The notes under the pieces: model-generated
What the model was told of the DNA's origin: nothing
The model's database searches: none
What the model saw: the letters and a program-made list of their open reading frames with translations, nothing else
Position numbers and translations under genes: made by a program
Source of the DNA: a virus
DNA: 64,000 nt
IMG/VR virus record: IMGVR_UViG_3300021478_000015
Location: 62,001 to 126,000 of that record
Reading direction: 5' to 3' (one strand)
Shown: positions 13,552-61,074 of the stretch, in pieces
How the letters are laid out: the number at the start of each line of letters is the position of its first letter
Position numbering within the stretch: position 1 is the stretch's first letter

Positions 13552-13581
13552 ATGACCACCAAACTGAGTAATCCATCATGA
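13552..13581 (+). CDS. Nine-residue leader peptide MTTKLSNPS
   Basis: ATGACCACC begins at the position expected for the transcript 5' end of promoter 1; the frame stops after nine codons with TGA overlapping the next ATG (ATGA). A second promoter (14837-14865) is followed by an almost identical arrangement. The probable role is to load ribosomes on a leaderless mRNA and hand them to the downstream gene, which lacks its own ribosome site. Confidence 0.55.
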   Translation: MTTKLSNPS

Positions 13582-34532: not shown

Positions 34533-34727
34533 ATGACCCGTTGGATCATCGAAGTCTCCCATGATGGGGCCATCGATATCATGCGGAATGGCAAGGCCTT
34601 CGCTTATGACCTCGATGACTACGACGAGGCCTTTGCTCGTATCAAGAAGGACAAGCGCTATCAGAAGGGGGATAGAGTGGAGATGGTTGATCCGGATGGA
34701 TACCGGCGTAAGATCACGTCCCTGTGA
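34533..34727 (+). CDS. Small hypothetical protein
   Basis: 64 residues, MTRWIIEVSHDGAIDIMRNG; beta strands then KDKRYQKGDRVEMVDPDG. An in-frame ATG at 34500 would add 11 basic residues but overlaps the preceding gene; the chosen ATG has ACAGG ahead. The stop overlaps the GTG of the next gene. Confidence 0.55.
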   Translation: MTRWIIEVSHDGAIDIMRNGKAFAYDLDDYDEAFARIKKDKRYQKGDRVEMVDPDGYRRKITSL

Positions 34728-35572
34728 AGTGGGCCTCGATAAAGCGTCCGATCATTGCCGCCGGGATTGTCGGATGCTTGATCGGCATCACCTTGCTGAG
34801 CCTGGACGTGACCAAGTCCACAGCCGCTCCCCAGTCGCACGCTGACCCGCTGCTGACCCTGGCCAAGGAGGTCATCAACCTGGAGGGTGGCACCGCCGTG
34901 GCCGCCGACTTCACCTTGATGGCCATCGGCCCGGTCACCGTCTCCGGCCCGGCCAACACCGCCGCGGTCCGTAATCAGCCGGTGCCGATCGGGACCTACC
35001 AGCTACGGGAGTCCGGCCCGGCCAACTACGTCCCCTCGATCTGGGAGTGCCTGGGCAGCTTCGTGTCGTCCACCAGCAACTCGGTGACCCTGGCCGAGGG
35101 CGACAACGCCACCTGCCTGATCACCAACACCTTCCGTCCTCCCACCACCACCACGACCACCACCACCGTGCCGGGCACCACCACCACCACGGTGCCGGGG
35201 GCGACGACGACCACCACACCGGGTGAGACGACCACCACGGTGCCTCGGTCCACCACTACCGCTGTCCCGGCCACCACCGTGCCTGAGACTACGGTGCCGG
35301 GCGCGCCCACCACTACGCTGCCACCCGAGTTCACCGTGCCGACCGTGCCGGGTCAGACCACCACCACCGTGGCCGTCCCTCCTTTGCTGCCTCCTGCACC
35401 GGGGCCAGGCGCGCCTGCGGCCGCCGGGATCCCCCCGGCTACCCTTCCCCTGGCCTCCACCGGCAGCGATACTGGCCAGTACGCCGGGATCGGGGTCCTG
35501 GCCCTGTTGGCCGGACTGGGCTTGGTGGTCCTCGCCCGCGGCAGGAAGAAGAAGGTGGATGACCACGGCTGA
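34724..35572 (+). CDS. Cell-wall-anchored surface protein (LASTG), Thr/Pro stalk
   Basis: 282 residues from GTG (GTGA overlap). Signal peptide (IIAAGIVGCLIGITLLSL). Residues about 40-135 form the same prealbumin-like beta domain as in the 33155-34261 product: GGTAVAADFTLMAIGPVTVSG, WECLG and NATCLITNTF keep the motif order and Cys pair. A stalk of TTTTVPG-type repeats follows, then LPLASTGSDTG, a hydrophobic helix and RGRKKK. LAxTG is the form recognised by class E sortases of high-GC Gram-positives. Expected location is the host cell wall or its pilus-like structures. Confidence 0.85.
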   Translation: MKWASIKRPIIAAGIVGCLIGITLLSLDVTKSTAAPQSHADPLLTLAKEVINLEGGTAVAADFTLMAIGPVTVSGPANTAAVRNQPVPIGTYQLRESGPANYVPSIWECLGSFVSSTSNSVTLAEGDNATCLITNTFRPPTTTTTTTTVPGTTTTTVPGATTTTTPGETTTTVPRSTTTAVPATTVPETTVPGAPTTTLPPEFTVPTVPGQTTTTVAVPPLLPPAPGPGAPAAAGIPPATLPLASTGSDTGQYAGIGVLALLAGLGLVVLARGRKKKVDDHG

Positions 35573-36030: not shown

Positions 36031-39000
36031 ATGAAGCACTACGCCGCCCTGGAGATCATCAGCGCTGAGTACGGCGATCAGCACTCCCTCCGTCACCTGG
36101 CCCATCGGGCGGACTTCACCTACGCGCCACGTCCCGGCTACCTGTACGTCCGCTCCAGGGCCATCAGTTCACGCACGAATGACAACTTCGATGACTTCCC
36201 GGCCGAGGAGATAGAGAAGGGCTACCGGTCGTTCATCGGGAAGCCAGTGTTCGTTAACCATGTCAACGAGGATCACAAGCGTGCTCGGGGTGTGGTCATC
36301 GATGCCGCCCTGCATCATGATGTGAATCCCAATGGTTCGCCGGATACATGGTGTGAAGTATTGATGGAAGTAGACGCACTACGCTTTCCGAAGTTGGCTC
36401 AAGCGATCGTCCAAGGTCATATCGATCGTACTTCCATGGGTGTTGACGTGGAGTACTCGATCTGTAGTGCCTGTGGTAATAAGGCCACGAACCCGGCGGA
36501 GTATTGTCGTCATATTCCGCAGATGAAGGGCTCGAAGATCGTCCGGCGGAATGCCGCCACCAACCGGCCAGAAGAGACTCTCATCTTTGAGACCTGCTAT
36601 GGGCTGAGCTTCTTCGAGAACTCGTTACTGGTCGAGGATCCCGCCGATCCCACGGCCTACTTCCTGGGCGTGGACGATCGTGGCCTCAGGATGGCCCAGA
36701 AGACCGCACATAGGAAGCTATGTCGGCAATGTCTCACTTCGTCATCATGTGCCGCGTACGGATGTGGGCGTAGCTCAGAGGGCCTGGGAGCTTTCGTGGC
36801 CAGCACACCGGGCAACTTCGACAAGATCCCTCAGCACCACTGGGATTACCTGTCCGATCTGGTGGACCGAGTGGGCCAGCGCGAGAAGACCCCCAAGGTG
36901 TGCTGGCAGGTGTTCTCGGCCATCGATCACAAGCTGGGCTACCCCCAGGAGTCCGGCTACTACCGGGGTGAGGGCCACTACTGGAATCGCCTGCCGGACG
37001 GCTCCATCCTCGATGCCAGCCATGATCAGTTCGAGGAGGACGACGACCCGGTGCGGATCTTCGCCCCTGGTGATCCCGAGCACGGCCATTTTAAGACGGC
37101 TGTGCGCCACCAGGAGGGCCTGGGAGCCTTCGTGGCGGCCCATGACCTGGACGAGGCTGTGACCTCCTTCAAGCCCTATGCCGAAGAGCAAGGTTGGCAT
37201 GATCCGACTTGCGTAGGTGGGCAATGCGACGTGGCCTCGACGGAGTTCGCCCAGCACCTCCATGAGCACGGCATCCCCCATGAGGTGGTGACCCACTATC
37301 CCGAGCCGGGTGGCCCCATGAGCCACAGCGTGGTCGAGGTCGGGGACCACACAGTGGACTGGACGGCTCGCCAGTTTGACCCCAAGGCGGACTTTCCTCA
37401 CATCGAGCCCCATCACGTCACCCGCAGTCGCTGGCACCGCACCGAGCCCTACTACGGTGAGATCGAGTATGGCAAGGATTACCGAGAGGCGTCCTTAGCG
37501 GGTGATAAGTCCTGGATCAAAGAGGAGCATGACTACGAGGGTCGTCATGGGGAGCGCCGTCACATCACCCGCACCATGACGGGAGCATTGCCCACCCATC
37601 TGGTCCAGCACTTGATGGGTGTCAAGGGCGAGATACCCGGTGAGCATCGTAATAAGCAAGGTCAGCAATGGGAGGACTTCAAGTCCGACATCGCTCAGAA
37701 CGGCATCAAGAACCCCATCTTTATCACCCAGGATCCGGGGGAGCGACCCAAGATCTCCGAGGGCAATCACCGCCGGGACGCGGCGGTGGAGCTTGGCCAT
37801 CCCTACGTGCCGGTGGAGATGCGCTACTTCGGTCACGCCGAGCAGGATCCCGACAACCTGGAGGACAAGGCCCAGGCCCACTTCGATCGGGAGAACCAGA
37901 TCCGCAGCTTGGGTACTCGCAGGCTCGCCCGTTACGAGCCCGAGCCCGACGCTCCCGAGGAGGGTGAGTACGAGAAGGAGCCCGATCCTTCGGGTTTCTT
38001 CCCCAACGGCATCGCCACCCGTTGGCGACAAGCGCATAAGCCGCTGGTGGCGGACGCCTTGCACGCCTGGAAGGGCGACCCCGTCAACGCTCTGACTCAC
38101 TGGCACCACGAACTCAACGACGATCCCCAGCCTGACTCGGGCTCGGGCAAGCAGATGCGAGCCCAGTCCGGGGCTCTGCGCTGGGAACTTCAAAATAACT
38201 CCAAGACGTTCGGACGCAAGCTCTATCGAGGAGTGCCCACCGCCCAGGACCGCCTGCCCAAGGTGGGCGACATCATCGACCATGACGACCGGCCGCGGGG
38301 CTACTCTTCCAACCGGGCCACGGCTTGGGCCTTCGCCCGCAAGTCGGGCTCCGACCACCTGCGCCGTCCCCTGGTCCCGGTCACCTACCAGACCGCGCCG
38401 GGCACCCAAGGCCTGCGGATCAAGGACTACGGCACCGGCAGCGGTCTTGATCAGTCCGAGCAGGAGTACGTCCTCCATGGCCAGCATCAGGTCACCCACG
38501 TCGAGTCCACCGACAAGGGCCTCCATGTGCGGACCCGACCGTTACAGAGCTACACGGCCGGGCTCAGAGGCTTTGTGGCCGCACGGGGCGATGACCCTGG
38601 CCTGGATGAGGCCCTGGACCAGTTGGGAGAGATCCTCTCCCGCCCTTCCCATGCTCCTCCCCCGAAGATCCTGCCCGAGGCCCATGAGATGTACGGCGGC
38701 TACATCCATGAGCACCCTTCCGGTCACCTGCACGTCTCTGAGGCCCCTGGAGCGCTGTCTAAGCCCCTGGAGAAGCTCTACCGCATCGTTCACCCTAAGG
38801 AGTGGGAGGAGGCCCAGCAGAAGGGCTACCTGCAGTCCAACACGGCCTTCTCGCCGGGTTACACCAGGGCCTCGGCCCAGCCGGACGAACGCTGGCGGCG
38901 GCAATCGGCTGATCCCTCCGAGATTGCCCCCAAGGGCCACACCATAGAGATCGACTACCACCCCGATGACAACTGGCATGCCTCGGCCGAGGGCTACGCC

Positions 39001-42000
39001 GCCACCCGCTCGAAGATCCCGCTCAGCCGGGTCCGCAAGATGGCCAAGACCGAGGTCTCGGTGGCCGGGCTAGCAGTACTGGCCGCCGATACGGGCCGGG
39101 TGCTGATGCTGCAGCGCGCCAACCATGATGTCAAGGATCCGGCTGCGGGCACCTGGGAGTTCCCCGGTGGTCATCTCAACCCCGACGAAGCGCCAGTCGA
39201 GGGGGCTATACGGGAGTGGAAGGAAGAGCTTGGCTGCAAGCTGCCTGCCGGGCATGTCCAGGGCCATTGGATCTCGAAGAAGATCTATCAAGGCTTCGTC
39301 TATGTCATCGAGCATGAGGACGAGGTTGACATAAACCACGATCATGAGAATCGCCAGGTCCTGAACCCCGATGATCCTGATGGGGATGAGATCGAGGTGG
39401 CGGCCTGGTTCGAGCCCAAGGACCTGCCCGACATGCCTGCCCTGCGCGACGAGGTCAAGAGCGGCACCGACTGGTCCAAGCTCAAGCTCAAGAAGACGGC
39501 CGGACTCGAAGCATTCCTGGCCGCCTACTACCATGTCAGCCCGCACTGGTTGCCATCAGGGACCAAGCTCACCCCCGGCGGGGGCCGTCGCAACTTCGGG
39601 GGCCGGGCCGACAGTGACGCCGTGTACATGGCTGGGTCAGAGGGCGAGGCCGAGCAGTGGGGCAACGCCATGGCCCAGGACGAGCCCACTGGCCATCTGC
39701 ACATCTACGAGGTCCAGCCTCACGGCCCGGTCACCCACAGTCAGGGTCATGTGACCATGGACGACTTCCACGATGTGATCGGCCAGCACGCTGCCCCAGC
39801 GGCCACCATCGTCCGCCATCACTACTCCTACGATCCCGAGAGCGGGGAGGCCTTCTATCCCCATGAGGCCGGGCTTGGAGCCTTGGCGGCGGCCGAACCC
39901 ACCTTCTACCACGGGACCAGCGACGATCTAGAGCCGGGTAGCCAGCTTTCGGTGGAGGAGGCCACTCGGCGGCAACCAGAGGTGGCCAAGGCCTTAGAGG
40001 ATCGGGGTGGTCAGCACATCAGCTTCACCACCGACTACCAGCACGCCCAGATGTACGCCGGGGTCCGCGCCCAGACCCGCGGCGGGACGCCTCGGGTGTA
40101 TCGGGTGCAACCAACCGGGGGCTACGAGCCCAACCCCGCCGACGAGAAGTGGCGGGAGGGCAAGCCGCCCATGTCCTTCAGGACCAAGGAGCCGGTCACC
40201 GTCCTGGGGGAGGCCACGCCACCGAAGCGGCGACGGAAGCAGAGCGGACTGATGGCCTTTGTGGCTGTCAATGCTTCGGATGAGGTCCCGCCTGAGCCTG
40301 GTCTCTCGCCTATCCCTGAGGGCCACGTCCGGCTGTTCCACCAGACCGGCCCGAAGCACGTCGAGTCCATCCGTCAGAACGGGCTGACCATGGAGCATGC
40401 TCGGGCCACCGGAGGGCCGGTCGGGGTGTGGGCCAGCCACGGCACCCGCTTCTATCCCGGCCAGGACCACGCCACGGTGGAGTTCCACGTCCCCTACAAG
40501 GAGCTACAGGACACCGCCGGAGGCCAGTCGCCCCACCGCCATCAGCCCCAGGAGGACTGGGAGCAGTCCAACCACCACACCCTGGTCATCCCCCGCTCGA
40601 TCAAGCCCCATGAGATCACCGCCATCCATGAGCCCTGGCACGATCGCTATCGGTACTTCCACAACGAGGGCATGACCGACGAGGTCAAGCAGGGTGGCTT
40701 CGACAACCTGAAGGACATCCCTGACTACGGCCGGGCCATCGACAAGATCAAGAGCGAGGCCAGCCTGCACCTGGCCATGAACACCGAGGACGAGGTACCC
40801 CCTCGACTGGGCACCGCGCCCATCCCGGAGGGCCATGTGCGCCTCTATCACCACACTTGGTCCAAGAACGTGCCCAGCATCCGCGAGCACGGTCTCCTGG
40901 CCGAGATGGGAAAAGGTGACAGTGGCAAGGGCTACGGCAATGAGCTATCGGCCGGGGTATGGGCGGCTAGTCAGCATCCCGAGCCTGATCCCCAGAGCGA
41001 CCGGCATGTGATCGAGTTCCACGCCCACCCCTCCGAGATCGATGTCAACGGGCCTTCTCCTGGCCAGGATGTCCATAAGTGGCAGCAAGGTGATCACAAC
41101 GTCTTGATGCGGGGCTCGGTCAAGCCCGAGAACATCCTGGCTATCCATGCCCCCTGGCATACCGCTTATCATCAGATCAACGATGATCCCCGCGACCGGG
41201 AGGATGTCAAGAACGGCAAGCTGGACTGGGTCCATAACGATCCCTCCATGCCGGGCGTGAGCAAGGCCGTTCACAAGATCCAGGCCGAGGGGGCGGCCCG
41301 GCCCAACATCGGCAAGGGCTGGTGGCTCACCCCCGAGGGCAAGAAGATCGGCGTGTACGACCACTATGAGACGACGCCTGGCATGGCTCGTCAGATGATC
41401 CGCCCGCACATGGCGGAGAGTGGTCAGGTTAGGGTCCGTAGTTTCAACAATCAACTCAACGTGCAAACGGCCCGTCCCTTCACCGATAAGCAGCGTCAGA
41501 GTTTGCTGATGGATGCGGACCGACATAGCCGCATGTTTGTGGACGTGCTCCACCCCGATACTGAGGAGTCCATCCACTCCGAGTCCGGGGGTCCCGAAGA
41601 AGCCGATCGCATGCTGGCCCGAGCCCATCGCGCTGCCATCCCCCATGAGGCCAAGAGGGCGGTGCAGGGTGCTCGAAAGGTCACTCAGGTGCCCCTGCAA
41701 CACATCCTCACTCACACCGAGCCCACCGACATGGCTAGCTACGGCCACACCTGGCCGGACGCCTTCCGCGACATCGAGGAGAACCATGAGGACTTCGCCC
41801 CCAAGCATTGGGGCAAGTTCCTCGATCACGTCCAGGCTCACGGCATCCAGACTCCGGTGGTGATCCTGCATGACGGGGAGCGCCAGAAGCTGTTCTCCGG
41901 CCATCACCGGGTGTGGGCCGCCCACCGTTTGGGCCTCAGCCATGTCCCCGCCTATCACACCGACGATCCCTCCGAGGCCTATGACTTGATGGACGAGCAG

Positions 42001-45000
42001 GCCGCTCATGAAAGCGATTGGCACAAGCAGGCTGGGCTATCGACCTTCATAGCCATCGAGGCTCACCCTGACAGCTACCATACGCTGTATCGAGGATTGC
42101 ACTTCGGTGAGATTGAGCCACACAATATCGATGACTTCCACAAGAATCCCCAGAAGTACATGGGCCATGAGAAGAATGTTGGGATCCATTGGACCGACAA
42201 TCCGGACTCGGCCTACAACTTTGCCACCGATAGAGATCCCGAAGGCTGGGCGCATGAGGGAGATCCCGATGAGGAGCAGGGACATCTCCACGGCGTGATC
42301 CTGGAGGGAAGAGTCCATCCTCGCCACATCATCGACCCGGAGTCTGAGGAGGGCCAGGGCTATGCCATGTCCGACGCCATCCTGGGCCATGAGCATCCCG
42401 AGAACGAGGTGACGGTGCGCGGCGATGCCCGTGTGCATGTCCACAAGATCCACGCCATCACCGAGCACCCCGAGACCGGTGAGAATCGTTGGACCACCCA
42501 CAACGTCTCAGAGCATCACTTGGCCGTTCAATATGAAGCCCTCGGTCCTTATCGCAAGATCAACGTCGAAGACATCAAGCGCAACATGATCATTCGTCCC
42601 AGTTGGGGGCAACATGATTGGACCCGTACTACTGGTGATGCTCAGCATGATCCCGATCATCCTGACGACACTTCGCGTGAGTTTCCCGATGAGGATGATC
42701 CCGATCACGTCAAGATGTACGTGATCCCCATTCACCGGACCTTCACGCCCCATCAGCCTGAGGGGACTCCCTATCACGTCCGGGTTCGCAAGCAGGCCGG
42801 ATTGGAGGGCTTCATAGCGGCCCAGGGACCTACCTACTACCAGGGGCGGCGCAGCGATGGCAGCCGGGCTCAGATCGGCGGAGAGCGGGGTCAGGGCTGG
42901 GACGAGCATATGTTCGTGTCCCACGATCCCGAGGTGGCCCGCCTGTACGCCGGGCATCAGGGCAGCGTCCACGCCATCCACATGGCCCCCGACACCAAGG
43001 TGCTCAAGATCGACCGGGCCAATGGCCCCACCTGGAAGCGCTACGCCAAGGGCACCGAGGGCCAGGGCCTGCTGGACGAGGCCAAGACCATCGTGGCCCG
43101 TGCCGGAGGAGAGGGCTACCACGTTGTGGAGTTCCACCGGCCGCACGATTACATCGGCCACGTCATCCTGGACCGATCCAAGGTTCAGGGCGAGGAGCAT
43201 ATGGCCGCCGGTCACGGTGATCTCATAGGACGAGGATTACACCTCAATCTCTCCGATGAAGACGGCGATCATGAGCTAGCCAATAAGATCTGGGATCATC
43301 ATCCTGATGCGGCTCGACATCTCCTCCACACTATCCATGACATAGGCGGTGGTCACGCCGGGGCTTGGTGGGGAAGACTTAATCCTCAACATCGTGAGTT
43401 CAGCACCCATGAGGTCAAGGATTACGCCGAAGGAGGCGAAGGCGGCGAGGAGTTGATGAACAAGTGGCATCCTGAGGCCCATGATCCCGAGGAAGGCAAT
43501 CACGGTTTGCACGGTGGTGTGGATGTCGCCTTGATCGCTCACAACACCCATGGCTGGGACCCCGAGAAGAATCCTCTGGTGGCGGGCGGGCTCATGGGTA
43601 GCTCCTACATCCCCGAGGGCCAGGGCAAGGACATGCCCCTGCACTCGATCCATGTCAACGACGGTAGGGGCTGGCGACGGCTGCCTCACCCTCCTGGGCT
43701 GACCGTGACCGCGGCTGACGATGACGAGGATTGGCGGGGCCTGCACCAGCCCTCGATGGGGCCGCCTATCCACAACCTGCTGGAGAAGGACGAGGACGGC
43801 GGCCAGCTAGCCCCTGACGACATCTACACCCACATGCACTACTACACCGATGGCGAGGCCAACTGGGACAACGAGTCCCACGCCGCTATCCGCAAGGCCC
43901 GTGGTGACATGCCGCTACACCAGCGCCCGGCTGCACCGGCCAAGATGTTCTCGGAGCGAGCCGGTGGGGGCGAGATGAGCCCGGCCCGAGAAGCTGAAAG
44001 CGATGAGGCCTTCGCCCAGCGCCAGCAACGGCGCAAAGACGGTGAGCACCACGTCACCATCTACCGGGCTGCCCCCAAGGGGCTCAAGTCCATCGGGCCA
44101 GGGGATTGGGTCACGCCCTCGCCCAGCTACGCCCGCGACCACGCCCGTCAGGCCAGCGACCCCAAGAAGGACTGGCCGGTCTACAAGGCCTCGGTCCCGG
44201 CCAAGCATGTGCGCTGGGCCGGGGACTCCCTCAACGAGTTCGGATATTCGGGGCCTGCGGTTAAGCCCACTTACCACACCAGGGGTGGCACCCAGGCCGA
44301 GCGTCTGGCCGCATTCGTGGTCGAGGCTGATCAGCCTTACGCCGGGGGCTACCAGTTCAAGTTCCGCAAGGCCCAACCCAACTCCATGGAGGCTCAGGCC
44401 GATAAGACGCTGAACTATCACCGCCTGGATGCCTTCCATGAGAACACCCAGGATCTTACCCAGGGTCGCGGTGGTCATGCAGGCTTTCTACTCTGGCATC
44501 ACAAGACCGGTGAGATCGGCAGTATCGAGACCCTGCCCGAGCATCAGCGTCGAGGGCTGGCCACCGAGATGCTGGACCAGGCCCGCCAGATCTCCGCCAC
44601 CACCCGAGGGGTCAAGCCCCCGAAGCACTCCAATCAGCGCACCGACGCCGGGGAGGCCTGGGCACGCTCGACTGGCGACCGGCTGCCTCGCCGGGTGCAA
44701 TCCCTGGCCGCCTTCGTGGCTGCCCTGGACCCCTCCGAGATCTCTGAGACCTCACCGGAGGAGTTCCACCGCAACTTCTCCCGGTCCATCGCCGGTAGCC
44801 CCTTCGAGCGTCATGTCACCAACCACACCCCGGAGGAGATCCGCTCCGAGGGTATGAAGCCGCTTACTATCAACCATGGTACGAGTGGTGTCCTGATCCA
44901 TGATCACGGGGATGGTAGGATAGAGCCGACAGGACTGTACAACGATCGGGAGAAAGGAGTGAAGGGTGCCGGTATAGATCTTCTCAAGCATGCCGTTGAG

Positions 45001-45381
45001 CATCACGGGGCGAACTACTTTGAGTGTTACGGCCCGCAACTGCCGAAGATGTACGAGAAGCTCGGGTTCCATACCACCGAGAAGTATCCGTTCGATCCCT
45101 CCCAGGCCCATCCGGACTGGGATTACGAGCAGCACAACCACCCTGATTACCACATCATGAGACCGAACGATCCCCAGCAGAAGACGGCCGCGCTCCCGGC
45201 TGACGTGATCAGTCTTTCCGACGTGGACTGGGACGACCCGGCGGCGGTGGCCGCGTTCAAGGCCCAGACCGAAGCTGAGCTTGACGCTGAGGGCGGCCAG
45301 GACTGGGTCCACATGACGCCCGAGCAGAAGGAAGCCTCCTGGCAGGCAGCCCTGGCTCAACTCGGGGTCCATCTCCCCTAG
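36031..45381 (+). CDS. Prohead-protease/multi-effector polyprotein, 3116 residues
   Basis: Residues 1-230 resemble a capsid maturation protease: KPVFVNH (His77) and HIDRTSMGVDV (Ser135), plus CSACGN zinc-type Cys. Then follow, in order and approximately: two papain-like modules (C, HYWNRLPDG, LDASHDQF at 255-360; GQCDVAS, HSVVEV, DWTARQFD at 363-490); a ParB-like module (500-615, EGNHRRDAA); an R-S-E ADP-ribosyltransferase (670-840, LYRGV, YSS, EQE); an ART-like unit; a Nudix hydrolase (1010-1155, box from GHLNPDEAP to REWKEELG); four more ART-like units (1157-1750, the last two duplicates); an unknown unit; a second ParB-like module (1885-1990, SGHHRVWAAHRLG); further ART-like units (2003-2755); two GNAT-like acetyltransferases (2766-2887, 2904-3034). 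A peptide of the form AGLxxFxAA recurs between modules and may be a processing or targeting site. Head proteases of this kind normally have 200-700 residues. It starts directly after a late element. Confidence 0.8.
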   Translation: MKHYAALEIISAEYGDQHSLRHLAHRADFTYAPRPGYLYVRSRAISSRTNDNFDDFPAEEIEKGYRSFIGKPVFVNHVNEDHKRARGVVIDAALHHDVNPNGSPDTWCEVLMEVDALRFPKLAQAIVQGHIDRTSMGVDVEYSICSACGNKATNPAEYCRHIPQMKGSKIVRRNAATNRPEETLIFETCYGLSFFENSLLVEDPADPTAYFLGVDDRGLRMAQKTAHRKLCRQCLTSSSCAAYGCGRSSEGLGAFVASTPGNFDKIPQHHWDYLSDLVDRVGQREKTPKVCWQVFSAIDHKLGYPQESGYYRGEGHYWNRLPDGSILDASHDQFEEDDDPVRIFAPGDPEHGHFKTAVRHQEGLGAFVAAHDLDEAVTSFKPYAEEQGWHDPTCVGGQCDVASTEFAQHLHEHGIPHEVVTHYPEPGGPMSHSVVEVGDHTVDWTARQFDPKADFPHIEPHHVTRSRWHRTEPYYGEIEYGKDYREASLAGDKSWIKEEHDYEGRHGERRHITRTMTGALPTHLVQHLMGVKGEIPGEHRNKQGQQWEDFKSDIAQNGIKNPIFITQDPGERPKISEGNHRRDAAVELGHPYVPVEMRYFGHAEQDPDNLEDKAQAHFDRENQIRSLGTRRLARYEPEPDAPEEGEYEKEPDPSGFFPNGIATRWRQAHKPLVADALHAWKGDPVNALTHWHHELNDDPQPDSGSGKQMRAQSGALRWELQNNSKTFGRKLYRGVPTAQDRLPKVGDIIDHDDRPRGYSSNRATAWAFARKSGSDHLRRPLVPVTYQTAPGTQGLRIKDYGTGSGLDQSEQEYVLHGQHQVTHVESTDKGLHVRTRPLQSYTAGLRGFVAARGDDPGLDEALDQLGEILSRPSHAPPPKILPEAHEMYGGYIHEHPSGHLHVSEAPGALSKPLEKLYRIVHPKEWEEAQQKGYLQSNTAFSPGYTRASAQPDERWRRQSADPSEIAPKGHTIEIDYHPDDNWHASAEGYAATRSKIPLSRVRKMAKTEVSVAGLAVLAADTGRVLMLQRANHDVKDPAAGTWEFPGGHLNPDEAPVEGAIREWKEELGCKLPAGHVQGHWISKKIYQGFVYVIEHEDEVDINHDHENRQVLNPDDPDGDEIEVAAWFEPKDLPDMPALRDEVKSGTDWSKLKLKKTAGLEAFLAAYYHVSPHWLPSGTKLTPGGGRRNFGGRADSDAVYMAGSEGEAEQWGNAMAQDEPTGHLHIYEVQPHGPVTHSQGHVTMDDFHDVIGQHAAPAATIVRHHYSYDPESGEAFYPHEAGLGALAAAEPTFYHGTSDDLEPGSQLSVEEATRRQPEVAKALEDRGGQHISFTTDYQHAQMYAGVRAQTRGGTPRVYRVQPTGGYEPNPADEKWREGKPPMSFRTKEPVTVLGEATPPKRRRKQSGLMAFVAVNASDEVPPEPGLSPIPEGHVRLFHQTGPKHVESIRQNGLTMEHARATGGPVGVWASHGTRFYPGQDHATVEFHVPYKELQDTAGGQSPHRHQPQEDWEQSNHHTLVIPRSIKPHEITAIHEPWHDRYRYFHNEGMTDEVKQGGFDNLKDIPDYGRAIDKIKSEASLHLAMNTEDEVPPRLGTAPIPEGHVRLYHHTWSKNVPSIREHGLLAEMGKGDSGKGYGNELSAGVWAASQHPEPDPQSDRHVIEFHAHPSEIDVNGPSPGQDVHKWQQGDHNVLMRGSVKPENILAIHAPWHTAYHQINDDPRDREDVKNGKLDWVHNDPSMPGVSKAVHKIQAEGAARPNIGKGWWLTPEGKKIGVYDHYETTPGMARQMIRPHMAESGQVRVRSFNNQLNVQTARPFTDKQRQSLLMDADRHSRMFVDVLHPDTEESIHSESGGPEEADRMLARAHRAAIPHEAKRAVQGARKVTQVPLQHILTHTEPTDMASYGHTWPDAFRDIEENHEDFAPKHWGKFLDHVQAHGIQTPVVILHDGERQKLFSGHHRVWAAHRLGLSHVPAYHTDDPSEAYDLMDEQAAHESDWHKQAGLSTFIAIEAHPDSYHTLYRGLHFGEIEPHNIDDFHKNPQKYMGHEKNVGIHWTDNPDSAYNFATDRDPEGWAHEGDPDEEQGHLHGVILEGRVHPRHIIDPESEEGQGYAMSDAILGHEHPENEVTVRGDARVHVHKIHAITEHPETGENRWTTHNVSEHHLAVQYEALGPYRKINVEDIKRNMIIRPSWGQHDWTRTTGDAQHDPDHPDDTSREFPDEDDPDHVKMYVIPIHRTFTPHQPEGTPYHVRVRKQAGLEGFIAAQGPTYYQGRRSDGSRAQIGGERGQGWDEHMFVSHDPEVARLYAGHQGSVHAIHMAPDTKVLKIDRANGPTWKRYAKGTEGQGLLDEAKTIVARAGGEGYHVVEFHRPHDYIGHVILDRSKVQGEEHMAAGHGDLIGRGLHLNLSDEDGDHELANKIWDHHPDAARHLLHTIHDIGGGHAGAWWGRLNPQHREFSTHEVKDYAEGGEGGEELMNKWHPEAHDPEEGNHGLHGGVDVALIAHNTHGWDPEKNPLVAGGLMGSSYIPEGQGKDMPLHSIHVNDGRGWRRLPHPPGLTVTAADDDEDWRGLHQPSMGPPIHNLLEKDEDGGQLAPDDIYTHMHYYTDGEANWDNESHAAIRKARGDMPLHQRPAAPAKMFSERAGGGEMSPAREAESDEAFAQRQQRRKDGEHHVTIYRAAPKGLKSIGPGDWVTPSPSYARDHARQASDPKKDWPVYKASVPAKHVRWAGDSLNEFGYSGPAVKPTYHTRGGTQAERLAAFVVEADQPYAGGYQFKFRKAQPNSMEAQADKTLNYHRLDAFHENTQDLTQGRGGHAGFLLWHHKTGEIGSIETLPEHQRRGLATEMLDQARQISATTRGVKPPKHSNQRTDAGEAWARSTGDRLPRRVQSLAAFVAALDPSEISETSPEEFHRNFSRSIAGSPFERHVTNHTPEEIRSEGMKPLTINHGTSGVLIHDHGDGRIEPTGLYNDREKGVKGAGIDLLKHAVEHHGANYFECYGPQLPKMYEKLGFHTTEKYPFDPSQAHPDWDYEQHNHPDYHIMRPNDPQQKTAALPADVISLSDVDWDDPAAVAAFKAQTEAELDAEGGQDWVHMTPEQKEASWQAALAQLGVHLP

Positions 45382-45575: not shown

Positions 45576-45611
45576 CCTGTCGGTGACCGGGTCAGGGCGA
45601 CGAAGGGATGA
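45576..45611 (+). promoter_or_regulatory. 36-base late-gene element, copy 3
   Basis: CCTGTC, 20 bases ending in TCAGGGCGAC, then GAAGGGATGA, one base before ATG of the scaffold-like gene. Confidence 0.7.
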
Positions 45612-48096: not shown

Positions 48097-48732
48097 GTGA
48101 TTCGTGTTCCCATCTCCAGGTCGTACATCAAGCGGACGATCCGGCCCAACTATGGGTGGACGCAAGCCACGCCCAAGTCCGGGTATCTGGATCCGGCTTG
48201 GAACCGCTCCGTTCCCATCTGGCCCGGCATGGCCTTCATGCGGACCACGGGCGCGTCCGGTTACACCGGCCCGTATCAGACCTTCGGAGCCACTTCAGGT
48301 GGTCCCAACTACAGCCTTCTCAACGCCACTGGCGTCCCGGCTGGTCTGGTCGGTAACTACATCGGCGGCGAGGGCATCGATGAGCTTCTCGATACCGGTG
48401 TGTCGGCCTTGGCCGTGTGGGTCCTCGACCCTGACGCCGAGTTCGAGATCCTGGCCCCGGCCTTCGACGCCAACCTGACCTGGACCGACCCTGGCAACGG
48501 CACTGACGCCCTGGTCTACGCCCGCACCGCCAACCTGGGTGGAGCGGTAGGTCTCAACGGTCTCGGTGGAGCCATCGCAGGAGGCAGCTACACCGGCACC
48601 TACGGCCTGCAGGGTCAGCTTGTGACCGCCGCGGACGCCAACAAGTCCACCCAGCCGGTGGCCCGGCTCATCGCCGTGAACTCGAACATCTCCATCACTG
48701 TCGGCGGCCTGATGGTCCGCTCCGGCTTCTGA
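48097..48732 (+). CDS. Head decoration-like protein
   Basis: 211 residues from GTG with AGGAGG ahead. Sequence is beta-rich and Gly/Thr-rich with aromatic turns (NYGWTQATPKSGYLDPAW, FMRTTGASGYTGPYQ, DANLTWTDPGNGTDALVY). Such a protein immediately before the major capsid gene is usually a capsid-decorating or stabilising protein. Family not identified. Confidence 0.65.
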   Translation: MIRVPISRSYIKRTIRPNYGWTQATPKSGYLDPAWNRSVPIWPGMAFMRTTGASGYTGPYQTFGATSGGPNYSLLNATGVPAGLVGNYIGGEGIDELLDTGVSALAVWVLDPDAEFEILAPAFDANLTWTDPGNGTDALVYARTANLGGAVGLNGLGGAIAGGSYTGTYGLQGQLVTAADANKSTQPVARLIAVNSNISITVGGLMVRSGF

Positions 48733-48772: not shown

Positions 48773-49765
48773 ATGAGCATGGTTGCCACCGCAGCGGGGC
48801 TAGCGCCGAAGCGAGCCAAGAAGTCGGACGATTACGTCCAGGAGATCCTCAAGCGCCGCGGTGGGGACGGCAACGTTCCCTCCCTGACCCATGAGGCCAA
48901 GGTCCGCAAGCTCTCGTTGATCCTCCAGGACGAGGTCAACGGCATCCGCCGCCTGGGCGTGGGCATGGTCGGCCCTATCCAGCTAAAGCTGCGCTACCAG
49001 GGCATCGTCCGCAACGTGCTGATCGAGGACCCGGTCACGCCGGGCACCCCGGTGGAGTACGACGTGTGGGACGACCTCGGCCAGGCCTACCTCATGAGTG
49101 GCACCGAAGGCGAGGTCCGGGTCACTCCCTTCGAAGGCAAGCGCCTGCCCATCCGGTTCTGGCGTATCGCCTCCCGTCCGGCCATCCGCAAGGAGGACCT
49201 GTTCTACCTCCGCATCAATGCAGTCGAGCAGGCCCAGGACGAGACCAAGCAGGCCATCATGAAGCAAGAGGACAGCCGGATGATGGTGATCATCCAGGCC
49301 GCCCTCACCGACTACGCCTCCCGGCCGGACCATGTGGTCACCCCCAACCACACCGTGTACGAGGCTTCGGGGTACTTCACCCCGCAGTCCATGTACACCG
49401 CGGTGGCCCAGTCCGACATGCACGAACTGCCTGCCGGGCGCATGTTGGTCAACCCCTTTGACTACCGGGACTTCTTCCGCTGGGACATCAACACCACCGG
49501 CTGGGCCTTCAAGGACCGTATCGTGGCCGGGGAGCAGATCCAGAGCTTCGGTGAGTTCCAGTTCCAGCGTTCCATCATGGTCCCCTCGGGCCAGATGTTC
49601 CTGCTTCCCAACCCTGACTTCCTGGGTGTGTTCCCGGTCCTGTACTCGCTCGATGTGGAGGAGAACCACAACGTCGAGGCCTTCTGGAAGGGCTGGGTGT
49701 TCGATGAGATGGTGTCGATGGCCATCCTCAACCCTCGGGGTATCACCACCGTTCTCAAGGGCTAA
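48773..49765 (+). CDS. Major capsid protein
   Basis: 330 residues, AAGGAG site. It shows the plan of HK97-fold capsid proteins of large phages: a helical N-arm (DDYVQEILKRRGGDG), a long spine helix region (INAVEQAQDETKQAIMKQE), a P-domain with MYTAVAQSDMHELPAGRML, and the terminal signature MFLLPNPDFLGVFPVLYSL, then WKGWVFDEMVSMAILNPRGI, closely resembling the ending of other phage major capsid proteins. Its place after protease, scaffold and decoration genes agrees. Confidence 0.85.
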   Translation: MSMVATAAGLAPKRAKKSDDYVQEILKRRGGDGNVPSLTHEAKVRKLSLILQDEVNGIRRLGVGMVGPIQLKLRYQGIVRNVLIEDPVTPGTPVEYDVWDDLGQAYLMSGTEGEVRVTPFEGKRLPIRFWRIASRPAIRKEDLFYLRINAVEQAQDETKQAIMKQEDSRMMVIIQAALTDYASRPDHVVTPNHTVYEASGYFTPQSMYTAVAQSDMHELPAGRMLVNPFDYRDFFRWDINTTGWAFKDRIVAGEQIQSFGEFQFQRSIMVPSGQMFLLPNPDFLGVFPVLYSLDVEENHNVEAFWKGWVFDEMVSMAILNPRGITTVLKG

Positions 49766-56020: not shown

Positions 56021-57634
56021 ATGGCGCTGTATCCGCCGCTGTGGATGCAGGAGGGCACCTATCCGGCCAACCTGGACCGGTTCTTCATCCAGGACGCCCT
56101 GGGACCCGGCCCAGCCCTTCTGAGTGGCTCTGGAGCCCTCCAGGTGACCCAACGGGCCGCCGGGACCAATATGTCGGTGGACGTGGCTGCAGGGCGAGCT
56201 TTGATCCCCGGCACCGACATCGCCAACCAGGGGGCCTACACCATCTGGTCCGACACCGTGGTCAACGTGCCCATCGCCGTCGCGCCGGGGGTGGGCACCG
56301 CCCGTATCGATCTGATCGTGGCTCAGGTTCGCGACGACTTCGTCATCGGTGGAGGCCGCAGCGACTTCGTCATCGTCCCCATCCAGGGCACCGCCGCTGT
56401 CACTGGTTCGCAGGTAGCTCCGGCCGTTCCATCTAGCACCTTGGTCTTGGCCCAGATCCTGGTCGGATCCAATGTTCCGGCCATCCTCAACTCCTTCATC
56501 ACCGACGTGCGGCCTTATGCCCGTGCCGCGAACACCCAGCTACTGGTCAGCCGTCCCCTGGCCTCTCTGATCACGGCGGGGTCGCCTTACACGGTCAACC
56601 ACAACCTGAACACCACCAGCCTGATCGTGGATATCTGGGACACGGTGACCAATCAGCGCATCATGGCCAACGTGGCCATCGTGGACGCCAACAACATCTC
56701 GGTGTCGGTGACCCAGAACGCCCCCAACCCGGTCAACGTGGTCATCATGGGCACCTCGGTGGCCCCCACCATGGTGTTGCCCTCGAACCTGGCCACCGTC
56801 CAGTACGTCCAGCAGCAACTGACCCAGGCGTACAACTTCGCCTTCATGCAGACCATTGCTTCGCCCACGGCCGCGGGCTCGCCTTACAGCATCGCCCACA
56901 ACCTCAATACCACCAACGTCTTTGTCGAGATCTGGGACGCCGTCACCAACCAGCTTGTGATGACTCAGATCAACATCGTGGATGTCAATCACATCTCGAT
57001 CACAGTGGCTCAGAACATGCCCAACTCCATCAACGTGGTGGTCATGGGCGTGGGTAATGCCCCTCTGCCACTCAACCCCTCTAACACCGCCACCAAGCAG
57101 TATGTCGATTCTAAGACGCCCACTCTTCCGGCTGCGGTTACCACTGGTGCCACCATTCAGAGCTTCACCGATTCGTTGGGCGATGTGTGGGTGGCTCTCA
57201 ACGGTGTTAACGGTGGGAACTGGAGGCGAGCCCGTGATGTCTTGCACTCCGCCGTTTATCGCAATGCTGCCTGGACTACTTCCAATGCTAATACTCCAAT
57301 AGCCTTTGACACTGTTATTAAGGACGACTACGGCCTCTGGGTTTCTCCTAGCTGGACTGCGCCTGTAGCGGGGTGGTACGACATTTATGGTCAGTATGAG
57401 GCCACGCCTGCGGCTGCTGGTAACTTGTTTAACATCTTCATTGGTGCGGGCGTATCCGCATATCAGTCTACGTTTGCGAGGGCAGTCGAGACCACGGCGG
57501 CTCGAACTCATGCCTCTCTCTACTTGGCCGCGGGTGGACAGGGTCAAGTTGTCCTTCAAACCACGGCGGCCTACACAGGAAGCACTGGTAACCAGTCTAC
57601 TTGTGGCCGCTTTCACTATATGGGATCGGGCTGA
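56021..57634 (+). CDS. Tail/fibre protein with C-terminal receptor-like domain
   Basis: 537 residues. N-terminal 180 residues (LYPPLWMQEGTYPANLDRFF, then IDLIVAQVRDDFVIGGGRSD, VLAQILVGSNVPAILNSFIT) resemble base-plate or minor-tail proteins of actinophages. Two repeats follow (SPYTVNHNLNTTSLIVDIWD and SPYSIAHNLNTTNVFVEIWD, each with an NxxNVVxMG end), short beta units about 85 residues apart. From about residue 363 the sequence becomes the first copy of the domain repeated in the next six genes (IQSFTDSLGDVWVALNGVNG, WRRARDVLHS, YRNAAW, AGWYDIYGQYE). It may be the anchor that fixes the array to the virion. Confidence 0.7.
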   Translation: MALYPPLWMQEGTYPANLDRFFIQDALGPGPALLSGSGALQVTQRAAGTNMSVDVAAGRALIPGTDIANQGAYTIWSDTVVNVPIAVAPGVGTARIDLIVAQVRDDFVIGGGRSDFVIVPIQGTAAVTGSQVAPAVPSSTLVLAQILVGSNVPAILNSFITDVRPYARAANTQLLVSRPLASLITAGSPYTVNHNLNTTSLIVDIWDTVTNQRIMANVAIVDANNISVSVTQNAPNPVNVVIMGTSVAPTMVLPSNLATVQYVQQQLTQAYNFAFMQTIASPTAAGSPYSIAHNLNTTNVFVEIWDAVTNQLVMTQINIVDVNHISITVAQNMPNSINVVVMGVGNAPLPLNPSNTATKQYVDSKTPTLPAAVTTGATIQSFTDSLGDVWVALNGVNGGNWRRARDVLHSAVYRNAAWTTSNANTPIAFDTVIKDDYGLWVSPSWTAPVAGWYDIYGQYEATPAAAGNLFNIFIGAGVSAYQSTFARAVETTAARTHASLYLAAGGQGQVVLQTTAAYTGSTGNQSTCGRFHYMGSG

Positions 57635-58227
57635 TGTCGCTCATTCCCACCTACGCCCCTCCGGACAACCTTCCGGCTCCGCTCACATACGGCGGCATCC
57701 AGTCGTACACCGACATCTACGGCGACGTGTGGGTGGCCCTGGTCGGGGTCAATGGAGGAGCCTGGAGACGAGCCAAGGATGTCCTCTTCAGCCACGTCTA
57801 TCGCGTCGCTGCTCTGAACTTGACGGCTGGCGGTGCCACCACGCTTATGGATGGCACGATCTCGGACAACTATAGTCTGTACAATCCCGGCTTCCAAAGC
57901 GGAGTGGGTGCCTACATCATCCCGGTAGCAGGCTGGTACGAAGCTGTCCATCAAGTGGGAGGCACTGCCACTGCGGTCGGTCAGCAGATGGATGCTCGCA
58001 TCTATAACAACGGTGTTTTGATGAGCGTGGCCAGGGTGCATACCACGCTGGCCACCAGTTTCTCAGCCATAACAACGTACTTGGGCCTCTGCAATGTCAA
58101 TGACTACGTGCAGCCTTGGGACTACTGCAGCGCCACCATAGCGGCCATTGTGGGCTCGGGTACCCCGCCGAGCTTCGGTCCAGGGTACTGGACCTATTCC
58201 ATCCTTCGATACCGGGGGACGGGCTGA
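57634..58227 (+). CDS. Receptor-binding-like protein, array copy 1
   Basis: 197 residues: MSLIPTYAPPDNLPAPLTYG, then IQSYTDIYGDVWVALVGVNG, WRRAKDVL, YRVAALN and a jelly-roll-like second half (PVAGWYEAVHQVGGTATAVG, ARIYNNGVLMSVARV) ending YRGTG. Homologous to the C-terminal domain of the preceding gene and to five following genes. TGATG overlap at both ends. Confidence 0.7.
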   Translation: MSLIPTYAPPDNLPAPLTYGGIQSYTDIYGDVWVALVGVNGGAWRRAKDVLFSHVYRVAALNLTAGGATTLMDGTISDNYSLYNPGFQSGVGAYIIPVAGWYEAVHQVGGTATAVGQQMDARIYNNGVLMSVARVHTTLATSFSAITTYLGLCNVNDYVQPWDYCSATIAAIVGSGTPPSFGPGYWTYSILRYRGTG

Positions 58228-58793
58228 TGAGCCTAATCCCCACTTACGCTATCCCCGACAGTCTTCCGCCTCCGGTTATCTCTGGTACCACCGTGCAGTC
58301 ATTCACCGACGTGTGGGGCGATGTGTGGATAGCCAAGAACGGGGTCTATGGAGGAGCTTGGAAACGGGCGCGGGACACCCTCTACGGCAAGTGGTATCGC
58401 AATGCTGCCTTCACGTTGCCAGCGGGGCAGGCCGCGGTCCCACTTGATAGCACTACCCGAGATCCCTACAGCATGTACACCAATCCTGCCGGTAGTGCTG
58501 CGTATCCGCCTATTTCAGGTCTGTATGACATTCTCTGGCAGGTTACGGCTAATGCTACTGCTAGCGGTCAGTGGGTACAACCTCGGTTTTTCATCAATGG
58601 TATGCTGATGGGTGTTTCTCAGTCTTATGCCTCTTCGGTTAACGCCTTTAGCAGTGTCATAAGCCAGCAGTTTGTTCTCCATGTGGGAGATTACATACAG
58701 TTCTACGACAACGCTAGTACTGCGTTGGCAGCAGGAGTAGGCGCTCCGGGTTACTGGACTTACGCCACCGTCGAGTACTACGGAACGGGGTGA
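58227..58793 (+). CDS. Receptor-binding-like protein, array copy 2
   Basis: 188 residues, MSLIPTYAIPDSLPPPVISG, DVWGDVWIAKNGVYGGAWKR, YRNAAF, then PISGLYDILWQVTANATASG and an end in YYGTG. Front half nearly matches copy 1; the second half differs in most loops. Start overlaps the previous stop. Confidence 0.7.
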   Translation: MSLIPTYAIPDSLPPPVISGTTVQSFTDVWGDVWIAKNGVYGGAWKRARDTLYGKWYRNAAFTLPAGQAAVPLDSTTRDPYSMYTNPAGSAAYPPISGLYDILWQVTANATASGQWVQPRFFINGMLMGVSQSYASSVNAFSSVISQQFVLHVGDYIQFYDNASTALAAGVGAPGYWTYATVEYYGTG

Positions 58794-58797
58794 TGTC

Positions 58798-59346
58798 ATG
58801 AGCCTTGTTCCTGCCTATGCCATTCCTGATAATCTTCCGGCTCCCGTTACCTCGGGTGCCACCATCCAATCGTTCACCGATGTTTGGGGTGACGTATGGG
58901 TGGCCAAGAACGGTGTCAATGGTGGGAGATGGAAACGGGCACGCGACGCCATCTACGCCAAGTGGTTTCGTAATGCGGCCATTTCCATTGCTGGTGCCGC
59001 TGTTCTTACGCTGGATACTATGACCAAGGACGACTATGGCCTCTACTCTGCGGCGGCGTTCACCGTACCGGTAGCAGGCTGGTACGATGTCGTCTTTCAG
59101 CTAGCCGTCACGGCCACCGCTACGGGACAATGGTGTTCGGCTCGCATCAACGTCAACGCGGCCTTGCAAGGGATTATGCGAGCGCATTCTGGTGCGGCGG
59201 CCGCCATCTCGGCCACCTGCATCCAGCAGCTTGCTTTCAACGCTGGAGACACCGTGAACGCGGTGGCTGAGGCCAGCGTTTCATTGGCTTGTACGCCGTT
59301 GGTTTACTGGACCTACGCCACCTTGCAGTATCGGGGGACGGGCTGA
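58798..59346 (+). CDS. Receptor-binding-like protein, array copy 3
   Basis: 182 residues; MSLVPAYAIPDNLPAPVTSG, IQSFTDVWGDVWVAKNGVNG, FRNAA, PVAGWYDVVFQLAVTATATG, ending YRGTG. Very close to copy 2 in the first 60 residues. Confidence 0.7.
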   Translation: MSLVPAYAIPDNLPAPVTSGATIQSFTDVWGDVWVAKNGVNGGRWKRARDAIYAKWFRNAAISIAGAAVLTLDTMTKDDYGLYSAAAFTVPVAGWYDVVFQLAVTATATGQWCSARINVNAALQGIMRAHSGAAAAISATCIQQLAFNAGDTVNAVAEASVSLACTPLVYWTYATLQYRGTG

Positions 59347-59915
59347 TGACCATCCAGACCTACGCCCTCATCGATAACCTGCCGCCGCCGGTCACCTCGG
59401 GATCGGGCATCCAGAGCTTTACCGACGCCATGACCGGCGAGGTTTGGATCGCCAAGAACGGTGTCTACGGTGGAGCTTGGCGCAAGGCCCGAGATGTGGT
59501 GCATTTCCATACCTACCGTGCTGCTGCCTACAACTTGCCCACCGCGTCGGCTGTTATCGTTTTCGATACCCCTTGGCATGACACCTGGGGATTTTCTGCT
59601 GGATCTAACTACCAGTTTACGGCCTGGATCCCAGGCTTTTATCGTGTCTTTTCCTACCTGGAAGTCTCGGTAGCGGCAGCGGGTACTTATATCCAGATGA
59701 ACCTCATGCAGAACAACGCCACCAACTGGTCCAGCGACAACTATTTCACCAGCCGTGCCTCCGGTGGTCTGTGTGCCCGGACTCAAGCGCTTATGTATTT
59801 AAGCATAGGAGATCTTGTCAACCTCCATGCTTACCAGCCACAGGGTTACCCATGCATCGTCAGTGGGAGTCCTCCTCCCTGTCATCTTGAAGTCAGTTAT
59901 CTGGGTACCGGATGA
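59346..59915 (+). CDS. Receptor-binding-like protein, array copy 4
   Basis: 189 residues; MTIQTYALIDNLPPPVTSGS, TGEVWIAKNGVYGGAWRKAR, YRAAAYN, then a divergent beta half (IPGFYRVFSYLEVSVAAAGT) with YLGTG at the end. TGATG overlap. Confidence 0.7.
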   Translation: MTIQTYALIDNLPPPVTSGSGIQSFTDAMTGEVWIAKNGVYGGAWRKARDVVHFHTYRAAAYNLPTASAVIVFDTPWHDTWGFSAGSNYQFTAWIPGFYRVFSYLEVSVAAAGTYIQMNLMQNNATNWSSDNYFTSRASGGLCARTQALMYLSIGDLVNLHAYQPQGYPCIVSGSPPPCHLEVSYLGTG

Positions 59916-60517
59916 CCATCCAGGCTTATACCGGCGCTGAACTCAACATCCTGCCACCCCCGGTGACCACGGGTGGCATCCAGAGCTTCCTGGACCTCTA
60001 CAGAGAGCTTTGGATAGCAAAACCTGGCGTTAACGGAGGCAACTGGAGGAAGGCTCGCGATGTCCTCCACGCCTCGGTGTACCGTAATGCGGCTCTTGTT
60101 GCTCCCACGGCTAACTCCGTTTTTCCGGCTGACACCGTTATTCGTGACCCGTATGGCATCTGGGTTGGCAGCCCCACCTACGCGTTTGTGTTGCCAGTGG
60201 CGGGCAGTGTTTCAGGTGCGGTATACCCGGCCAGTTGGTGGCGCTTCGCCTTCCACTGGGTCTTGCAATCAGCGACCAGCCCCAACTATGTCGGCTGCCA
60301 GATCTTCCAGAACGGTTCGGGCGTCACCCAGGACAACATGATCATGAATCAAACCTCAGCCGGTAACTGTTCGGCCCGGACGCAGTACATGGGTCTTGGC
60401 TCGGCTAATGACACGTTTCAAGCGTATTATTCGTCCAGTGTTGCCAGCTTGAATGTCTATACTGGTCCGTCTATAAATACCTTCTCCTGCGCCTTCATGG
60501 GATTGTTCTTCGGATGA
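59912..60517 (+). CDS. Receptor-binding-like protein, array copy 5
   Basis: 201 residues; MTIQAYTGAELNILPPPVTT, IQSFLDLYRELWIAKPGVNG, WRKARDVL, YRNAAL. Insertion in the middle (VSGAVYPASWWRFAFHW) and an atypical end (AFMGLFFG) make it the most divergent copy. ATGA at both ends. Confidence 0.7.
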   Translation: MTIQAYTGAELNILPPPVTTGGIQSFLDLYRELWIAKPGVNGGNWRKARDVLHASVYRNAALVAPTANSVFPADTVIRDPYGIWVGSPTYAFVLPVAGSVSGAVYPASWWRFAFHWVLQSATSPNYVGCQIFQNGSGVTQDNMIMNQTSAGNCSARTQYMGLGSANDTFQAYYSSSVASLNVYTGPSINTFSCAFMGLFFG

Positions 60518-61074
60518 GCATTAACACGGGTGTTCCCGTCAATGGTTTCCCTCCTCCTTGGACGGCCTCGAACGTTGTTCAGTCTTACGTCGATCCATGG
60601 GGCGAAGTATGGGTGGCTAGAAGCAGTGTGGCCGGTGGCCAGTGGGGCAGAGCGCGTGATTGGCTACACGCTGTCATATATCGCAACGCCGCTTACACCA
60701 TGCCCACGTCACAGACCGTTATTCCCTATGACACTCAACTGGCTGACAACTTTGGTCTGTACACTGTCTCTCCCACTTACGGTTTCACCGTTCCGATAGC
60801 AGGCTGGTATTGGGTCCAGGCCACCTGTAATGGCAACTGCAATGCCACCGGGCAGTACATCCAGGGCAGTATCTTTCAAAACAGCACCGGTATCACCAAT
60901 GAGAACAGCATCACTTCTCTTACTGGCGGCGGGTTGTCCTGGCGCACCTGGAATGATGTGTTTTGTGCAGCCGGGGACAAGATCAACGCGCAGGCTTACA
61001 ACCCCACTGGATTGGCGGCCCAGGTGGGTCAGTCGAATACTCGACTAGAGATCTCATACATCGGTACTGGCTAG
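60514..61074 (+). CDS. Receptor-binding-like protein, array copy 6
   Basis: 186 residues; MSINTGVPVNGFPPPWTASN, VQSYVDPWGEVWVARSSVAG, WGRARDWLH, YRNAAY, PIAGWYWVQATCNGNCNATG and the usual YIGTG end. Start overlaps the previous stop. Confidence 0.7.
   Translation: MSINTGVPVNGFPPPWTASNVVQSYVDPWGEVWVARSSVAGGQWGRARDWLHAVIYRNAAYTMPTSQTVIPYDTQLADNFGLYTVSPTYGFTVPIAGWYWVQATCNGNCNATGQYIQGSIFQNSTGITNENSITSLTGGGLSWRTWNDVFCAAGDKINAQAYNPTGLAAQVGQSNTRLEISYIGTG

Follow-up and report, generated by a model that had tools for sequence, protein, structure and literature searches.

How might a phage load a whole set of enzymes into its head and release them before infection? This question was raised by a 64,000-nucleotide stretch (the window) of the IMG/VR virus record IMGVR_UViG_3300021478_000015, comprising bases 62001-126000 of this 156,983-bp record (the 157-kb genome of a soil phage). 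The initial annotation had described one giant gene in which a prohead-protease-like domain was fused to a long series of effector-like enzymes. To our knowledge, the choice and loading of early-injected phage proteins were poorly known outside T4, P1 and the phiKZ-like phages. Our analysis suggested that the gene product was probably a polyvalent polyprotein of effectors, with the phage's own head protease as its carrier and with cut sites like that of the capsid protein, its cleavage, packaging and injection being predicted from sequence. The gene and its N-terminal part were as follows (here and below a slash marks a presumed or predicted cut).

36031 to 45381 (+): giant chain gene, 3,116 codons from ATG, 349 kDa
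36031 to 36102 (+): predicted N-terminal propeptide, residues 1-24, ending in SLRHLA/HR; from AlphaFold disorder and [KR]xA in relatives
36103 to 36708 (+): head maturation protease domain, residues 25-226, with His77, Ser135 and a CxxC..CxH insert; predicted C-terminal end AQKTA/HRK; from PHROG, invariant residues and fold

Very long frames are rare, and the gene could have been an assembly or sequencing artefact joining several genes. However, the frame was open and stop-free throughout; the five other frames of the same DNA contained 24-164 stops. The guanine plus cytosine (GC) fraction at codon positions 1/2/3 was about 0.68/0.44/0.77, evenly along the whole gene. Thus, there was no sign of joined frames. 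Moreover, a homologous and independent 3,243-codon open frame was found at the same place in L015, a sister phage that came from a different metagenome, and the protease was extended in all the relatives described below. The window's C-terminal module lay in another frame in L015 (L015:19597-19842), which could be counted in favour of an artefact and suggested a change of frame at the chain end in one or the other phage. The artefact reading was already contradicted by these data, and its probability was negligible.

The N-terminal domain matched PHROG 2774 over residues 31-209 (E-value 4e-61) and PHROG 18299, a head maturation protease family, over residues 55-205 (E 2e-22). His77 and Ser135, which had been noticed in the initial annotation, were invariant across 55 sequences, down to the 32% identical protein of BcepSaruman annotated as head maturation protease. 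The AlphaFold model of the protease had a predicted local distance difference test score (pLDDT) of 88, with pLDDT <50 over most of residues 1-21. Its matches in BFVD were to predicted viral prohead or head maturation proteases (E 1e-7 to 1e-9, probability 1.0), to COG3740 and to XkdF-type proteins. In the phage collection, the protease was 47-48% identical to Bxz1-like mycobacteriophage proteins, mostly annotated hypothetical, and 40% identical to gp77 of Rhodococcus phage E3, annotated 'prohead protease'. In 48 of the 57 relatives [KR]xA stood right before HR, closing the protease propeptide. The chain also sat where a head protease was expected, with the portal at 1314, the chain at 36031, a putative scaffold at 45610 and the capsid gene at 48773. 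Family similarity, catalytic residues, fold and gene position together confirmed the N-terminal domain as a head maturation protease with predicted activity.

What could this protease cut? In the window chain, a de novo motif search found ten copies of [QT]AGLxAF[VIL]AA, with an expectation-maximization score of 208.8 compared with 166.1 +/- 1.5 in shuffles, and the L015 chain had a like motif that sat between other modules. Codons at the linker repeats were alike in 104 of 224 pairs, where 104.5 were expected from the codon usage of the gene. Since this likeness did not exceed the expectation, selection acted on the linker as a peptide, and the same codon test ruled out that the linkers had arisen by recent duplication of DNA or marked seams of recombination. 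No other open reading frame (ORF) of the 157-kb genome contained a strong match to the motif, which ruled out a general targeting signal for all head proteins. No repeated linker above chance was found in the 1,476-residue gene at 3534-7964, and the T4-like cut motif (L/I)xE or AxE was not seen at the linkers. The peptide KKTAGLEAFLAAYY was an example of the predicted protease substrate, alongside the capsid N-terminus. The 2,196-codon chain of a relative (L006:10616-16492) carried a different recurring linker, GPT[KR]YSLLQHFA.

The motif matched none of the other head proteins of this genome strongly. Its restriction to the chain would also fit a chain that was packaged and injected uncut, as are polyvalent proteins such as the N4 virion RNA polymerase, whose uncleaved packaging is cited in PMC5512222. 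The linkers would then be spacers or scaffold- or capsid-binding motifs, and the GLxAFVA helix could bind the scaffold or capsid in a manner comparable to the T4 capsid targeting sequence (PMC3012670). However, the linkers matched the presumed capsid processing junction, and throughout the clade [KR]TA sites bordered the protease, the cargo and the scaffold. Therefore, an uncut chain seemed unlikely to us.

The evidence for cutting by the chain's own protease came from the capsid protein. Its N-terminus in the window, GLAPKRA/KKSDDYV, was the presumed processing site, and the capsid proteins of the clade had variable N-termini that closed in a conserved GL[R]x[KR][VT]A just before KSDDYV. A matrix was built from the capsid N-terminal junction heptamers of other phages, with the window and L015 left out of training. 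With this matrix the window linkers took ranks 1-5 of 3,110 positions and the L015 linkers ranks 1-4; column-permuted matrices did equally well in 23 of 5,039 cases for the window and 29 of 5,039 for L015. The matrix also picked the linker GLTVTA (2556), earlier placed as a module border only. At positions P3-P1, [KR]xA was present in 29 of 38 capsid N-termini and 21 of 48 scaffold junctions, and P1 was A in 40 of the 48 latter. Clade-wide, [KR]TA occurred at 4.5x the expected frequency in cargo regions, 3.0x in upstream ORFs (portal side) and 1.5x in downstream ORFs, and the reversed control [KR]AT at 1.0x in cargo regions; these counts came from related phages and were therefore not independent. 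Since the linkers resembled the probable cut site of the shell protein, the virus probably loaded the enzymes in the head and cut them before injection. This resemblance, which the initial annotation had not seen, gave support to its suggestion of cutting during maturation.

Several points weighed against this reading. The capsid-derived matrix was short and G/L/A-rich and also matched other frames of this GC-rich genome, so that the link between linker and capsid was supported rather than proven. Two of the ten linkers (1158 and 2758) scored poorly with it, and P3 was F in the window linkers versus K/R in the capsid junctions. The recurring linker of L006 (GPTKYSLLQHFA) was not close to that phage's own capsid junction. 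Several modules fell in one predicted fragment (370-850 and 1413-2008). Additionally, cleavage of the capsid protein was assumed, because virion proteomics or N-terminal sequencing of clade members was not found, and the protease model had no significant match among solved PDB structures.

Two further sequences resembled these sites. The N-terminal region of the portal protein (1314-3521), SLRRGVA/DGPGE (AAASLRRGVADGPGE), was similar to the capsid processing junction, and the portal may be trimmed too. In another relative, a 1,146-residue ORF upstream of the protease ORF (L020:1544-4981) contained SRKTA-type sites six times, which suggested trans cutting by the same protease.

The cargo between the protease and the end of the chain was divided as follows (ART, ADP-ribosyltransferase; m, module).

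36781 to 36801 (+): linker 1 GLGAFVA, residues 251-257, predicted cut after A257
36802 to 37137 (+): YunG-like module and linker 2 GLGAFVA (predicted cut after A369); Pfam YunG E 5.5e-5, just under cut-off
37138 to 37485 (+): papain-like module, residues 370-485, C..H..D; motif only
37486 to 37905 (+): ParB-like module 1; PHROG ParB-like up to E 9e-8 at 547-598; common to L015
37906 to 38580 (+): ART-like module, residues 626-842 (R, YSS, EQE), and linker 3 GLRGFVA (predicted cut after A850); motif only
38581 to 39039 (+): module m06; without profile match
39040 to 39522 (+): Nudix hydrolase module, residues 1004-1135, and linker 4 KKTAGLEAFLA (predicted cut after A1157 or A1164); Pfam NUDIX E 6e-18
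39523 to 39891 (+): Arr-like ART module m08, residues 1165-1287, and linker 5 GLGALAA; Pfam Arr-ms E 3.7e-5, just under cut-off
39892 to 40266 (+): Arr-type (rifampin) ADP-ribosyltransferase module, residues 1288-1395, and linker 6 GLMAFVA; Pfam Arr-ms E 1e-17, PDB 2hw2 E 5e-6
40267 to 41280 (+): duplicated modules m10 and m11; paralogous, both common to L015
41281 to 41685 (+): module m12; 91% identical in L015
41686 to 42054 (+): ParB-like module 2 and linker 7 GLSTFIA; Pfam ParB_N E 6e-5, TIGR00180 E 1e-6
42055 to 42819 (+): modules m14-m15 and linker 8 GLEGFIA; m14 common to an upstream ORF of the relative L057
42820 to 43713 (+): modules m16-m17 and linker 9 GLTVTA; m16 common to L015, linker from the capsid-derived matrix
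43714 to 44322 (+): module m18, PHROG 2579-like, probable ART, and linker 10 RLAAFVV; PHROG 2579 E 7e-24
44323 to 44721 (+): GNAT module 1 and linker 11 SLAAFVA; Pfam Acetyltransf_1 E 1e-4, above cut-off, residues 2815-2860
44722 to 45381 (+): GNAT-like module 2 and C-terminal tail QQKTA/ALPADV; PHROG 2563 E 2e-6, GNAT by motif; common to L015

About half of the cargo modules were backed by enzyme-family profiles (Pfam, PHROG, NCBIfam). These included the Nudix, ParB-like and GNAT-like modules of the initial annotation, with the ParB-like domains at residues ~540-606 and 1886-1999 (NCBIfam and PHROG E 1e-6 to 1e-7), and the Pfam YunG match covered residues 312-337. The proposed papain-like module kept its motif but found no profile. 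Similarly, the claim of many ART-like modules held for the two Arr-type ones, but the module with the R, YSS and EQE motifs had no profile match, and the fold matches of m18, dominated by PARP among PARP/ART folds, were weak and below significance. The PHROG 2579-like domain of m18 occupied residues 2666-2749, and this module was also found in six other clade phages. Profile searches of the 626-842 module, the papain-like module, m06, m10, m12, m14, m15 and m16 gave no match; these modules, together with m11 and m17, were assigned by motif or left without assignment. In a pairwise alignment the Arr module kept the His of LHGT and had Phe at the apparent central Tyr of the family, positions that we take to be catalytic. 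Because of this Phe, its activity may be divergent.

The modules common to the window and L015 were under purifying selection. The ratio of non-synonymous to synonymous substitution rates (dN/dS) was 0.08-0.32 for the protease, ParB1, Nudix, m10, m11, m12 and GNAT2, lowest in the protease and m12 (0.08), and 0.58-0.76 for m16, m18 and GNAT1.

Was the fusion a peculiarity of one phage? An IMG/VR scan gave 80 loci and 73 non-redundant related actinophages, and in all 73 the protease was followed at its C-terminal end by a further 241-3,022 residues. In at least 51 members, one frame ran through the protease, a variable cargo (50-1,159 residues) and a zinc-ribbon protein that started with '..AYGETxxPxxVDTLRExxCPVCG', which, given its position, we read as a putative scaffold or core protein. 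This putative scaffold was a separate downstream gene in the window, L015, L006, L034 and others. The window phage and L015 had the longest cargo in the clade, shuffled and with the scaffold split off. Their proteases were 82-86% identical, and modules were gained, lost and moved between them (Nudix and ParB1 swapped, GNAT1 relocated). The commonest cargo domain was DUF7178: of 48 relatives, 30 had it within the protease chain. Nudix and GNAT were present as well. DUF7178 also occurred in the multidomain protein on the portal side of the window (3534-7964). Close protease relatives were found in two contigs of 152,548 and 156,949 bp (L096, L097) in Streptomyces assemblies, near full phage length; the assemblies suggested Streptomyces as the host genus of these relatives, and the contigs were possibly plasmid-like prophages.

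How could such cargo reach the next host? In our proposed mechanism, the chain would be assembled into the prohead along with the putative scaffold, which in most relatives is part of the same chain and in the window phage has become a separate gene. On maturation, the protease would trim itself, after A24 and near A226, and would also cut the capsid protein and the chain at the GLxAF(V/I/L)A/ linkers, whose sequence is of the kind that precedes the point where the conserved part of the mature capsid protein begins. About a dozen products would be freed inside the head and then injected with the DNA; the predicted fragments were of 13-67 kDa, besides a protease of 23 kDa and some short pieces. 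The place of cleavage was not fixed by sequence, and the protease could also cut in the infected cell before assembly, where cytoplasmic enzymes would modify the producing cell and would not be packaged. However, head proteases of this type act in the prohead, such as gp245 of SPN3US (PMC10052503), and in most relatives the cargo is flanked in a single chain by the protease and the putative scaffold, which would take it into the prohead. Thus, cytoplasmic release was highly improbable in our view.

Release inside the prohead might be a general arrangement in the clade. We lean slightly towards a cargo cassette, in which any effector domain that sits between protease and scaffold and is flanked by a sequence mimicking the capsid protein's own processing site would travel into the prohead in cis and be freed by the same protease. 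If so, capsid maturation and effector release would share one recognition sequence, and effector sets would swap freely between sister phages. It would also allow early-infection effectors to be discovered directly by reading what lies between protease and scaffold. The cut sites predicted from the sequence were explicit and testable, and the slot for variable cargo was present in a clade of no fewer than 73 phages. Some of these had relatives among the cultivated phages of Mycobacterium, Rhodococcus and Gordonia and among the contigs in Streptomyces assemblies.

The surroundings of the chain were those of a head-gene region. Along the window the order was portal, second multidomain protein, mostly small genes, giant chain, putative scaffold, PHROG 2783 protein and major capsid protein.

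1314 to 3521 (+): portal protein; PHROG 2833 E 1e-132
3534 to 7964 (+): second multidomain protein (2H phosphoesterase, DUF7178), adjoining the portal; 1,476 residues
45610 to 47796 (+): putative scaffold/core protein, acidic, VDTMREE..CPVCGS..CSVCGF; role suggested by position
48097 to 48732 (+): PHROG 2783 protein
48773 to 49765 (+): major capsid protein; PHROG 2522 E 1e-92

No near DNA relatives of the window were found among phage records, and no Rfam families or tRNAs were found in it. A Thr-rich secreted-type protein in the head-gene region (34724-35572, +), with LPLASTG, a membrane helix and an RGRKKK tail, resembled a sortase-anchored surface protein. Six or seven tandem paralogues with QSFTDxxGDVWVAxxGVNGGxWxRARD (56021-61074, +) were probably fibre-head or receptor-binding proteins. 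Three more tandem paralogues of ~331 residues each lay at 8310-11302, and a zinc metallopeptidase-like protein with HEVAHVL at 13578-14204 (+).

Among known systems, the T4 head protease gp21 with Alt and the internal proteins, SPN3US gp245, which cuts injected head proteins (PMC10052503), and P1 Pro, which cuts the capsid protein and DarA (PMC12810830), are similar in that a prohead protease trims co-packaged, injected proteins, as we infer here. The comparison with T4 made in the initial annotation held at the level of function. However, the T4 internal proteins are products of separate genes that share an N-terminal capsid targeting sequence (PMC3012670), and here there was one frame with an internal linker motif. 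Protease and cargo are likewise separate genes in SPN3US and P1. Moreover, the cut falls after Glu in these three systems (A-X-E in SPN3US), compared with a predicted x-A in the window.

Homologous proteases (40-48% identical) were N-terminal in proteins of 895-1,286 residues in the Bixzunavirus (Bxz1-like) phages, Rhodococcus phage E3 (gp77) and Gordonia phage Pupper (gp94). Those genes lay just before the major capsid genes and had the same VDTLR scaffold junction, with little recognisable enzyme cargo and no recurring linker found; most were annotated hypothetical or LysM.

The closest parallel in domain content was with the polyvalent proteins of phages and conjugative elements (Iyer et al. 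2017, PMC5512222), which that paper likens to polyproteins freed by embedded peptidases. As in those proteins, the chain combined several disparate domains in one polypeptide (protease, Nudix, Arr, ParB, GNAT), and the parallel extended to ART, GNAT, ParB and NUDIX neighbourhoods, an embedded peptidase and a virion gene neighbourhood. Assemblin-like peptidases were already noted there, always at the C-terminus. In contrast, the head protease was N-terminal in all members seen here and occupied the normal head-protease position. The repeated capsid-like linker of the window chain had no counterpart in the accessible text, and to the features described there our two sister phages added a reshuffling of modules around the protease. 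No paper on these features or on the protease-cargo-scaffold order was found in the open-access literature. Thus, several features appeared new in comparison with the known systems: the protease stood at the N-terminus, protease, cargo and scaffold were arranged in this order across a clade of actinophages, linkers resembling the capsid site marked explicit predicted cut sites, and modules were shuffled.
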